Origin: a virus
DNA: 34,398 nucleotides
Virus record (IMG/VR): IMGVR_UViG_3300008450_000199
Location: 1-34,398 of that record
Reading direction: 5' to 3' (one strand)
The notes beneath the pieces were generated by a model. It was not told the origin of the DNA. It did not search any database and saw only the letters and a list, made by a program, of their open reading frames with translations. Position numbers and translations under genes: made by a program. Below are positions 26,346 through 29,090 of this stretch, one piece after another (positions within the stretch are counted from its first letter, which is position 1; each line of letters begins with the position of its first letter).

Positions 26346-26963
26346 ATGGACGTTTACAAGGCAATTGCATCGGTGGCCGGAGAACTGGCCGCCATTGGCA
26401 TCGGCAAGACCAGCAAGAACGTGTCGCAGGGCTTTGCGTTTCGCGGCATTGACGCCGTGATGAACACGCTGTCGCCGCTGCTGGCGAAGCACAGCCTTGT
26501 GGTGCTGCCCCGTGTGCTGTCGCGGCAGGTCACCGAGCGGACGAACGGCAAGGGGACCGTGCTGTTCTACGTGACCGTCGAGGTGGAGTATGACCTCGTG
26601 TCGGCGGTGGATGGCAGCCGCCATGTCATCCGCGTGGTCGGCGAGGCGATGGACTCCGGCGACAAGGCCACCAACAAGGCTATGAGCGCCGCCTATAAAT
26701 ATGCGATGTTTCAGGCGCTGTGCATCCCGGTCGAAGGGACGCCAGACGCCGACGCGACGACGCACGAAGTGCAGGCGCTGCCGGACGGCTTCCTTGACTG
26801 GCTGGACGACATGCAGATTGTCGCCGAGCAGGGCGGCACCAAGGCGCTGCAGGGCGCATGGGCGCAGTCGCGGACGGAATGGAAGGCGCTCGTGCAGACC
26901 GGCCATGCCGACCGCTGGAAGGCCATCAAGGCCAGCGCGGCGCGGCAGGACAGCCATGTCTGA
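26346..26963 (+). CDS. erf: Erf-family single-strand annealing protein, 205 aa
   Basis: ATG at 26346 has GGGGAGGAG upstream. Residues 1-140 match the ERF domain: IASVAGELAAIGIGKTSKN, YKFRGID-type FRGIDAVMNTLSPLL, then the signature SGDKATNKAMSAAYKYAMFQ near residue 104. ERF proteins bind single-stranded DNA and anneal complementary strands for recombination and genome circularisation. The C-terminal 60 residues are a helical extension. It overlaps the exonuclease gene by 8 nt, forming the usual annealing-plus-exonuclease pair. Confidence 0.92.
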   Translation: MDVYKAIASVAGELAAIGIGKTSKNVSQGFAFRGIDAVMNTLSPLLAKHSLVVLPRVLSRQVTERTNGKGTVLFYVTVEVEYDLVSAVDGSRHVIRVVGEAMDSGDKATNKAMSAAYKYAMFQALCIPVEGTPDADATTHEVQALPDGFLDWLDDMQIVAEQGGTKALQGAWAQSRTEWKALVQTGHADRWKAIKASAARQDSHV

Positions 26964-27630
26964 CCTGCTCATTGACACCAACCCGCAGGGCTCGCCAGCA
27001 TGGCTGGCGGCCCGAGCCGGGTGCGTGACCGGGAGCCGTGCGGCTGACGTGGTGGCGGTGCGCAAGGACGGCCAGCCGACCGCCGCGCGCGCCGACTACC
27101 TGGCGCAGCTGGTCGCCGAGCACCTGACCGGCCAGCCGCAGGAGACGGGCATCGTCACGCCGTGGATGCAGCGCGGGACCGAGCTTGAGCCCGAGGCGCG
27201 GCTGCGGCTGGAGGCCCACATCGACGAGCCCATCTTCGAGGCGGGGTTCATCCGTCGTGCGCTGGTGTGGCAGGACCATGCGTATCACATCGGCTGCAGC
27301 GTGGATGGCTACTTCGGCGGGAGCCCGCAGCACGGCATCGTCGAGCTGAAGTGCCCGAAGCCGACGACGCATCTGCGGTATCTGCGCGAGGGCGTCATCC
27401 CCTCGGACTATTGGCCGCAGCTGCTGCACAACCTGCTGGTCACGGGCGCGGAGGTGTGCTGGTTCGCCAGCTACTGCCCGATCCTGCCGCCGCCTCTGCA
27501 GCTCTTCGCGCTGAAGGTGGAGCGCGGCGACCCGGACGTCGAACGGCGCCGAACGGGCTATCAACTGGCGCTGTCGGCCTTTCTGTCAGACTTGGACACG
27601 GAACTGGACTACTGGAGGACACGAGCATGA
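26956..27630 (+). CDS. YqaJ/lambda-exonuclease-type recombinase exonuclease, 224 aa
   Basis: ATG at 26956. Motifs of the YqaJ fold are clear: SPAWLAARAGCVTGSRAADV at the start, RGTELEPEARLRLEA near residue 75, SVDGYFGG with the catalytic aspartate near 115, IVELKCPK with the ExK pair near 130, and YWPQLLHNLLVTG near 154. The enzyme degrades the 5' strand of double-stranded ends and hands the 3' strand to Erf. Length is normal. It overlaps the preceding and following genes, so the three are co-translated. Confidence 0.93.
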   Translation: MSDLLIDTNPQGSPAWLAARAGCVTGSRAADVVAVRKDGQPTAARADYLAQLVAEHLTGQPQETGIVTPWMQRGTELEPEARLRLEAHIDEPIFEAGFIRRALVWQDHAYHIGCSVDGYFGGSPQHGIVELKCPKPTTHLRYLREGVIPSDYWPQLLHNLLVTGAEVCWFASYCPILPPPLQLFALKVERGDPDVERRRTGYQLALSAFLSDLDTELDYWRTRA

Positions 27631-27896
27631 GTGAGCAGACGAAGCCGGAACGCAAGGACATCGGCGCCCTGTGGGAGAAGACCAGCCAGAACGGCATGAC
27701 CTACATGAGCGGGACCATCAACGGGCAGCGGGTGGCAGTCTTCCGGAACAAATACAAGGAGGAGGGCGACAACAAGCCGCACTGGCGCATCTTCCCCGAG
27801 GCCGAGCGGCAGGCGAACGGGCAGCCTGCACCAGCTCAGGCACGACCGCAACGGGCACAGGCCGACGACACGACGTCGGACGACATCCCGTTCTAA
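27627..27896 (+). CDS. Mini SSB-like protein (DUF736-like) with SSB C-terminal tip, 89 aa
   Basis: ATG at 27627 overlaps the exonuclease stop. Residues 10-55 (IGALWEKTSQNGMTYMSGTI, then RVAVFRNKYKEEGDNKPHWR) look like the small beta domain of DUF736-type proteins. A linker rich in P, Q and A follows. The last residues are SDDIPF, almost the same as the conserved acidic tip DDDIPF of bacterial SSB, which binds PriA, RecQ, RecO, exonuclease I and the clamp-loader chi subunit. Next to Erf and YqaJ, it probably binds or mimics single-stranded DNA complexes. Whether the beta domain itself binds DNA is not known. Confidence 0.78.
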   Translation: MSEQTKPERKDIGALWEKTSQNGMTYMSGTINGQRVAVFRNKYKEEGDNKPHWRIFPEAERQANGQPAPAQARPQRAQADDTTSDDIPF

Positions 27897-28184: not shown

Positions 28185-29090
28185 ATGGACGACTCGACCT
28201 CTGAACCCACACACCTGCGCGGCATCGGCGCGTTTGGCATGATTCCCGAATGGCTGCTCGTGGCGAAGGTCAGCAGCACGGCCAAGGTGCTGTTCGGCTG
28301 GATGGCGTGCAAGTATGCCAGCCGATCGACCTGGTCCTGCTGGCCGGGACAGGCGCGTCTTGCGGAAGATTTGGGCTGTAGTCCGAGAACCATTGCCAGC
28401 GCCATCACGGAGCTGGTCGAGGTGGGCGCGGTGACCCGTCGCGCGCGGGTGGACAAGCACGGCGCACCGGCCAGCAACTTCTATCAGCTGATGTTCCTCC
28501 CCCCCCGCAGAAAACTGCAGGACCTGCAGAAAACTGCGGGACCCCTCCCGCAGAAAACTGCATCTACCCCCCCGCAGAAAACTGCATATGAACTAGAAGT
28601 ACTAGAACCAGAGGTACTGGAACGAGAGGAAGCGTCTCCGCGTCAGGAGACGGCGACGATATCAGCCCCCCTCATCGACAGCCCCCTGCAGTGGCATCGT
28701 CGGCACGGTAGCCATGTGGCCGAGATGTGCGACTGGGTCTGCCTGCCGCAGGAGCTGGCGAGTCAATACGCCACACGGGCCGGGATGACCGACGTTGAGG
28801 TGCTGGCGTGGGCCAAGCAGGTGCGGCAGGACTGGCAGACCGCCAAGCGGGTGCCGACCGGGTCGATGTTCGAGTTCTGGCAGGCCCGATGGGCCGAGCG
28901 GCACGCCGCCACGCAGCCGACCGCCGTGCCCAAGGGCCACACCTTCAGCGACCTGACGCAGTATCGCCAGGACAAGGCCGAGCGCGACCGGCAGGAAGCC
29001 GAGCGCATCGCCCGCTACCATGAGGAGACCCGGCGCCAGATGGCCTATCTGCGCGCCTTGGAGGAGGAGATGCGCAATGAGCAGCAGTAG
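28185..29090 (+). CDS. Lambda O-like replication initiator with intragenic iterons, 301 aa
   Basis: I chose ATG 28185 because of GAAGGAG at 28168-28174. Residues 20-105 form a winged helix-turn-helix (STWSCWPGQARLAEDLGCSP, then RTIASAITELVEVGAVTRRA), as in phage replication proteins of the O/DnaD type. Residues 110-140 are encoded by the iteron stretch and are repeat-like (LQKTAG, PQKTAS, PQKTAY). The C-terminal half (WHRRHGSHVAEMCDWVCLPQ and WAKQVRQDWQTAKRVPTGSM) is helical and probably meets the helicase loader. By analogy with lambda O, it binds the iterons to open the origin. Confidence 0.82.
   Translation: MDDSTSEPTHLRGIGAFGMIPEWLLVAKVSSTAKVLFGWMACKYASRSTWSCWPGQARLAEDLGCSPRTIASAITELVEVGAVTRRARVDKHGAPASNFYQLMFLPPRRKLQDLQKTAGPLPQKTASTPPQKTAYELEVLEPEVLEREEASPRQETATISAPLIDSPLQWHRRHGSHVAEMCDWVCLPQELASQYATRAGMTDVEVLAWAKQVRQDWQTAKRVPTGSMFEFWQARWAERHAATQPTAVPKGHTFSDLTQYRQDKAERDRQEAERIARYHEETRRQMAYLRALEEEMRNEQQ
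28507..28585 (+). repeat. ori: Replication origin iterons: four copies of GCAGAAAACTGC
   Basis: Perfect 12-nt copies lie at 28507-28518, 28526-28537, 28550-28561 and 28574-28585 (starts 19, 24 and 24 nt apart). The unit is a near palindrome with an A-rich centre. The first copy is in a different reading frame from the others (RRKLQ versus QKTA), so the DNA sequence rather than the protein is conserved. This is the arrangement of lambda ori inside gene O. Confidence 0.85.

Follow-up and report, generated by a model that had tools for sequence, protein, structure and literature searches.

A small DUF736-like phage protein with an SSB-type C-terminal tip, encoded behind Erf and YqaJ, as a probable equivalent of single-stranded DNA-binding protein

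The stretch of viral DNA analyzed here (the window; 34,398 bases) carries three overlapping genes on its plus strand. The first, at 26346..26963, encodes an Erf single-strand annealing protein of 205 aa (Pfam ERF, 63.8 bits; PHROG 155), and the second, at 26956..27630, encodes a YqaJ/RecE-like exonuclease of 224 aa (Pfam YqaJ, 78.5 bits) that overlaps both of its neighbors. The third, at 27627..27896, encodes a small DUF736-like protein, which we propose to be a phage equivalent of SSB; its translation gives 89 aa with the C terminus TTSDDIPF followed by the stop codon. The yqaJ gene begins with the ATG at 26956, overlapping the erf stop (26961-26963), and its own stop (27630) forms an ATGA overlap with the ATG at 27627 of the 89-aa gene, immediately 5' of which lies GGAGG. 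Because of this overlapping layout, co-translation of the 89-aa gene with erf and yqaJ, as the earlier note had it, is plausible.

The protein is divided into a core, a linker, and a tip. The core (residues 11-57; 27657..27797, plus strand) consists of the hairpin IGALWEKTSQNGMTYMSGTI followed by VFRNKYKEEGDNKPHWRIF, both conserved motifs, and AlphaFold2 predicts four beta strands in it, at residues 13-19, 25-31, 34-40, and 53-57, with pLDDT values of about 84-91 in blocks over residues 11-60. The linker (residues 58-83; 27798..27875, plus strand) is rich in alanine, glutamine, and proline (seven Ala, five Gln, three Pro, and three Arg) and predicted to be disordered, with pLDDT below 50 at residues 61-85. 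The last six residues, SDDIPF (residues 84-89; 27876..27893, plus strand), form an SSB-like tip, so that the protein possesses an SSB-type tail, a disordered linker followed by the acidic D-D-I-P-F. Translation, composition, and pLDDT thus bear out the earlier description of an 89-aa protein that ends in SDDIPF after a disordered P/Q/A linker. The label "DUF736-like" given to its core is apt for the family, whose close relatives L126, L127, and L130 score 22.1, 22.9, and 23.6 bits, but the window protein itself stays below the gathering cut-off of DUF736 (PF05284), with 21.3 versus 22.1 bits. Its match spans 24 residues (9-32) and covers only positions 48-71 of the 99-position model rather than its full length. 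A weak match (E 0.0028) links residues 48-89 to the tail region of an SSB model in NCBIfam. The Pfam scan of the window protein yielded no match to the OB-fold domain PF00436 (E<=1) or to PF05037 (DUF669), and no PHROG matched either the window protein or the type A relatives L126 and L127.

With the window protein as sole query, we recovered only one viral locus, no genome locus, one phage record, and one plasmid record, and a degenerate core pattern was therefore needed. The first phage relative found through the core was a 70-aa protein of MW202697.1, which shares 34.7% identity over residues 11-58 and ends in NDDIPF; where annotation was seen for proteins with this arrangement of the core (form A), as in this record, it reads only "hypothetical protein." Viral contigs were scanned with a DNA pattern for F.N..K.EG.N.P.[FY], which is confined to the core and leaves the tip unselected. 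The scan gave 77 stretches, 76 of them with a protein of this kind and 58 of these distinct; L007, an unrelated 338-aa ORF, was left out. With the strict tip defined as [DE][ILVM]P[FYW], the 58 relatives comprised 33 with a strict tip, 11 with an acidic stretch and an aromatic end, nine ending in P-F/Y, and five with none (L005, L012, L036, L065, and L076). L012, L159, and L163 extend beyond the tip, the latter two beyond SDIPF. In contrast, 1267 other ORFs of at least 60 aa from the same loci contained no strict tip, 14 acidic/aromatic ends, and two P-F/Y ends. The survey of DUF736-like relatives that the earlier note had suggested therefore found the tip conserved, with the strict form in 33/58 relatives versus 0/1267 controls.

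Within the type A alignment, PF stands at the C terminus in 20 of 22 rows; L097 ends in EDVAF, and L111 is tipless. The L111 protein (L111:2971-3186) has a type A core that lacks linker and tip, and its gene lies in divergent orientation next to a RecT-like and an exonuclease-like gene. When the window protein is compared with its four nearest relatives (L126, L127, L130, and L206), 25-30 of 47 core residues are kept, and linker identity ranges from 4/27 to 13/36, whereas the tip is identical at 5/6 or 6/6 positions. In the same four relatives, silent codon changes (ATC/ATT and TTC/TTT) lie beneath the constant DDIPF. An acidic C terminus that merely happens to read DDIPF has nothing in its favor except the shortness of the motif. 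The absence of the strict tip from the control ORFs makes such a chance tail extremely improbable, as does the retention of the tip where core and linker diverge and codons change silently, and we consider a chance tail ruled out by tip conservation.

The relatives fall into two forms that differ in the order of their motifs. In form A, to which the window protein belongs, the W hairpin precedes the N-K-EG-N-P-DY motif, whereas in form B the hairpin comes after it. Three loci (L013, L028, and L058) that the regular expression had placed in form B were assigned to form A by eye. The form A hairpin aligned with the second motif of form B with a probability of 97.1 and a score of 37.0, whereas none of 30 column shuffles scored above 9.9, and both segments lie outside the search pattern. 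A small DUF736 profile is matched by form B over the part with both motifs and by form A over the W hairpin. Both forms have a core motif in common with DUF736 (PF05284) proteins of alphaproteobacterial plasmids, with form A aligning to the later part and form B to the earlier part; in a tblastn comparison, residues 12-59 of the window protein were 40% identical to the later portion of a DUF736 protein from a Roseobacter plasmid. We infer that forms A and B are related by circular permutation via a longer DUF736-like ancestor. Unlike the window protein, none of five plasmid DUF736 proteins examined has the linker or the tip. One such plasmid protein (L121:1147-1875) consists of two tandem DUF736-like units.

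Form B was present in 63 phage records, many of them annotated as ssDNA-binding protein. Two families named "single strand DNA binding protein," PHROG 18154 and PHROG 7364, have matches to the cores of several form B proteins, so this form is already named as ssDNA-binding both in PHROGs and in phage records. These proteins, including those of Vibrio phage VP2, Acinetobacter phage SH-Ab 15497, and Erwinia phage Y2, resemble the window protein in motifs, size, linker, and tip, but their motif order is swapped and they have PHROG matches, whereas the window protein has none. All 12 form B proteins that we examined from named phages end in an acidic ...PF tip, among which EEAPF of C75C1 and DTDTIPF of Mae-JY35 fall outside the strict pattern. 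In Salmonella phage PMBT28 and Vibrio phage VP2, the 13 C-terminal residues of the form B protein, NEPPMDFDDDIPF, are the same as in the solved SSB chains 1eqq, which we take to be Escherichia coli SSB, and 7f2n, in a comparison of tips with hosts that covers the SSB chains in the PDB. For the VP2 protein, the record note refers to a resemblance to Vibrio SSB; for that of PMBT28, a comparison with solved structures yielded SSB tails and nothing else at E <0.01. The "ssDNA binding" names of form B may therefore stem in part from the tail.

Fold comparisons provided a lead for form B. Its AlphaFold2 model has four strands, and its best matches, all weak, were AcrIIA22 (7jta; Z 4.5), Borrelia Pur-alpha (3nm7, presumably PC4-like; Z 4.3), and a T5 PC4 homologue (4bg7; Z 3.8). 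Both 7jta and 4bg7 are described as PC4-like in PMC8545432. PC4-like proteins have a four-stranded antiparallel sheet, which the form B model may resemble, together with a helix, and bind nucleic acid as dimers, but these Z values of 3.8-4.5 are far below confident, no such protein is among the matches listed for form A, and a sequence match is absent. We thus treat the possible PC4-like affinity of form B as a lead and not a fold assignment. Among the form B matches in a viral model library are the ssDNA-binding protein of JSF9 and a protein that bears the name DUF736. For form A, the Foldseek comparison with the PDB gave nothing usable (best E 1.8); structural rows at Z <=3.0, mostly kinases, were disregarded. 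Against the PDB, the A3 profile gave one row (E 0.7), and the single weak row of the A4 profile (3dl3, E 0.046) was judged to be a chance match. No OB chain was present among the matches listed for either form, in lists that are themselves weak, and the form A model has four strands. With no PF00436 match either, an OB-fold core gains no support, and the comparison with OB folds suggested by the earlier note ended with neither an OB family match nor a confident fold match. An SSB-like function would accordingly rest on a non-canonical core.

The place behind Erf was examined in loci collected with the Erf and YqaJ proteins of the window. The window Erf as query gave 80 related loci and the window YqaJ gave 17; these 97 loci represent 93 contigs, since L126/L210, L127/L207, L128/L208, and L129/L209 are duplicates among L126-L222. 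DUF736-like genes were called by core-only models that ignore the tail. Such a gene was found in 28 of the 97 loci, with the strict tip in all but two (L159 and L163); another strict-tip ORF occurred in 26 loci, both kinds in none, and neither in 43. The 80 Erf loci comprised 12 with a DUF736-like gene, 26 with another tip ORF, none with both, and 42 with neither in the stretch covered, these counts including related, non-independent loci. The tip-bearing genes of the 38 positive Erf loci were thus of three kinds, 12 DUF736-like genes, 18 OB candidates, and eight members of a third small family, and no locus ever carried two kinds. All eight OB candidates tested were PF00436 OB-fold SSBs. The third family encodes proteins of 79-84 aa with an SSB-like tip after Erf (L162:4444-4698, L192:4613-4855, L195:2269-2511, L196:4227-4466, L197:4613-4855, L199:4431-4673, L202:5016-5255, and L204:4233-4475). 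It weakly matches phrog_18187 (unknown function), three members tested had no Pfam match, and it showed no detectable relation to cores A and B (hhalign probability 0.2-0.3); it is possibly a further SSB equivalent.

A whole-record search for PF00436 was consistent with this exchange. No PF00436 SSB was found in the 34398-base window record, while the same search was positive in 12 of 14 control genomes. Record searches for DUF669 and gp32 were empty too but carry no weight, as no control was positive in them. PF00436 was detected in 7/7 records with an OB candidate, in 0/11 DUF736-like records, and in 0/3 third-family records. Altogether, it was found in none of 32 distinct records with a DUF736-like core, an absence that is soft because most records are fragments. 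These observations bear on whether the tip could act as a decoy, in which the protein would not coat DNA and the tip would occupy or block host RecO, RecQ, ExoI, PriA, or tip-sensing defenses. Such a role would fit a tail that, in some phages, is almost the same as that of a bacterial SSB of solved structure, and a core that is not a recognized ssDNA-binding family in Pfam. However, the window-type gene replaces true OB-fold SSBs near Erf with one kind per locus, and a decoy would have no need to exclude SSB or to sit with an annealase and an exonuclease. Since a decoy would account for the tip but leave the exchange with true SSBs unexplained, we regard this reading as unlikely. Of the two readings offered by the earlier note, a minimal phage SSB gains good support from context, from the one-kind-per-locus exchange, and from the ssDNA-binding names of form B; a mimic that diverts host partners gains no specific support and is the less likely one.

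The neighborhoods of the core-selected relatives agree in part with this placement. Dereplication at 70% identity left 36 loci, after removal of L118 and L119, which are form B loci drawn by the type A query. Erf was encoded in 13 of these 36, at a distance of one to three genes upstream in every case and with no other occurrence among 555 ORFs. Among 123 neighbors scanned with Pfam were 13 ERF, one Sak, one RecT, six PDDEXK_1, and four YqaJ proteins. An ssb gene neighbors erf in almost 80% of cases in Firmicutes phages, as reported in PMC8093625. Form B follows Erf or Sak in C75C1, C72C1, Mae-JY35, and ctXG6705 and lies beside a DNA polymerase gene in PMBT28, PSA28, SH-Ab 15497, VP2, and Bm1, a placement comparable to that of the window gene. 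It also adjoins genes for DNA polymerase I and a helicase in phages in which no Erf was seen adjacent. In L082, L085, L089, and L092, form B lies near genes for DNA polymerase I and adenylosuccinate synthetase, the latter presumably of the PurZ type, and because of this proximity form B may serve phages with 2-aminoadenine genomes. In four phage records of 104-144 kb (L015, L044, L102, and L110), the neighbors found for type A are not recombination genes; weak matches place a glycosyltransferase-like gene beside it.

The overlap of yqaJ with the type A gene recurs in L126, L127, L130, and L097. Together with the erf-yqaJ-type A overlaps of the window and the presence of other annealing proteins (Sak or RecT) beside some members, it could point to an adaptor or mediator, whose core would bind Erf, YqaJ, or host SSB and whose tip would recruit host partners while the ssDNA stays uncovered. 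We hold this to be improbable, since form B beside DNA polymerase I and helicase genes, with no adjacent Erf, is not tied to one partner, and the exchange with OB-fold SSB likewise argues against it.

We therefore favor, as the probable explanation, that the phage encodes in the window protein a functional counterpart of SSB whose small core lies outside PF00436. Conservation of core and tip, the disordered linker, the place in the Erf module, and the OB-fold SSB in sister loci all support it. Against it stand the lack of a confident match to any ssDNA-binding fold, the tipless members (L005, L036, L065, L076, and L111), the four 104-144 kb type A records lacking recombination neighbors, and the 42 of 80 Erf loci lacking a tip gene in the stretch covered. 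OB-fold SSBs (PF00436) of bacteria and phages share with the window protein the tail layout, the tip, and the slot near Erf; however, the core of the window protein has roughly half the length of the PF00436 model (104 positions), to which neither protein nor record has a match. In such an SSB equivalent, YqaJ would resect the ends of the phage DNA, and the DUF736-like core, probably oligomeric, would coat the exposed single strand. Through its flexible tail, the protein would offer DDIPF to proteins that have a pocket for the SSB tip, in the first place to the phage's own Erf and possibly also to host PriA, RecO, RecQ, ExoI, or chi. This division of labor, in which the core would coat ssDNA and the tip recruit partners, is drawn by analogy from SSB biology and from HK620, whose SSB tip brings in Sak4. 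According to PMC5928155, the tip NDYPPF of HK620 SSB is needed for Sak4 to bind SSB-covered ssDNA. The HK620 protein is thus, like the window protein, a tip-bearing phage SSB in an annealase module (PMC5928155), but it differs in its DUF669 core, its size of 21 kDa, and its annealase, Sak4.

By title and the start of the abstract, no paper describing this DUF736-like phage family was found in a search of published papers that took in a minority of the subscription literature. If the SSB reading is right, it would give a function to widespread phage hypothetical and DUF736-like proteins, and DUF736, a family almost without literature that two papers in the collection searched mention by name, would become testable as a minimal ssDNA-binding fold. 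It would also provide compact SSB partners for Erf-type recombineering and make the Erf module a natural experiment on which part of SSB annealases need. A broader proposal, to which we give an even chance, is that the SSB tip stays constant after Erf while the cores are swapped among an OB fold, two circularly permuted variants of a four-stranded DUF736/PC4-like core, and one or more other small cores. In that case, it would be the tip rather than the DNA-binding domain that an annealase-associated SSB could not do without.

Downstream in the window, the palindromic 12-mer GCAGAAAACTGC occurs in four exact copies at 28507-28585, where 0.12 would be expected, within a gene for an O-like replication initiator. 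The four copies look like the iterons of a lambda-type origin.
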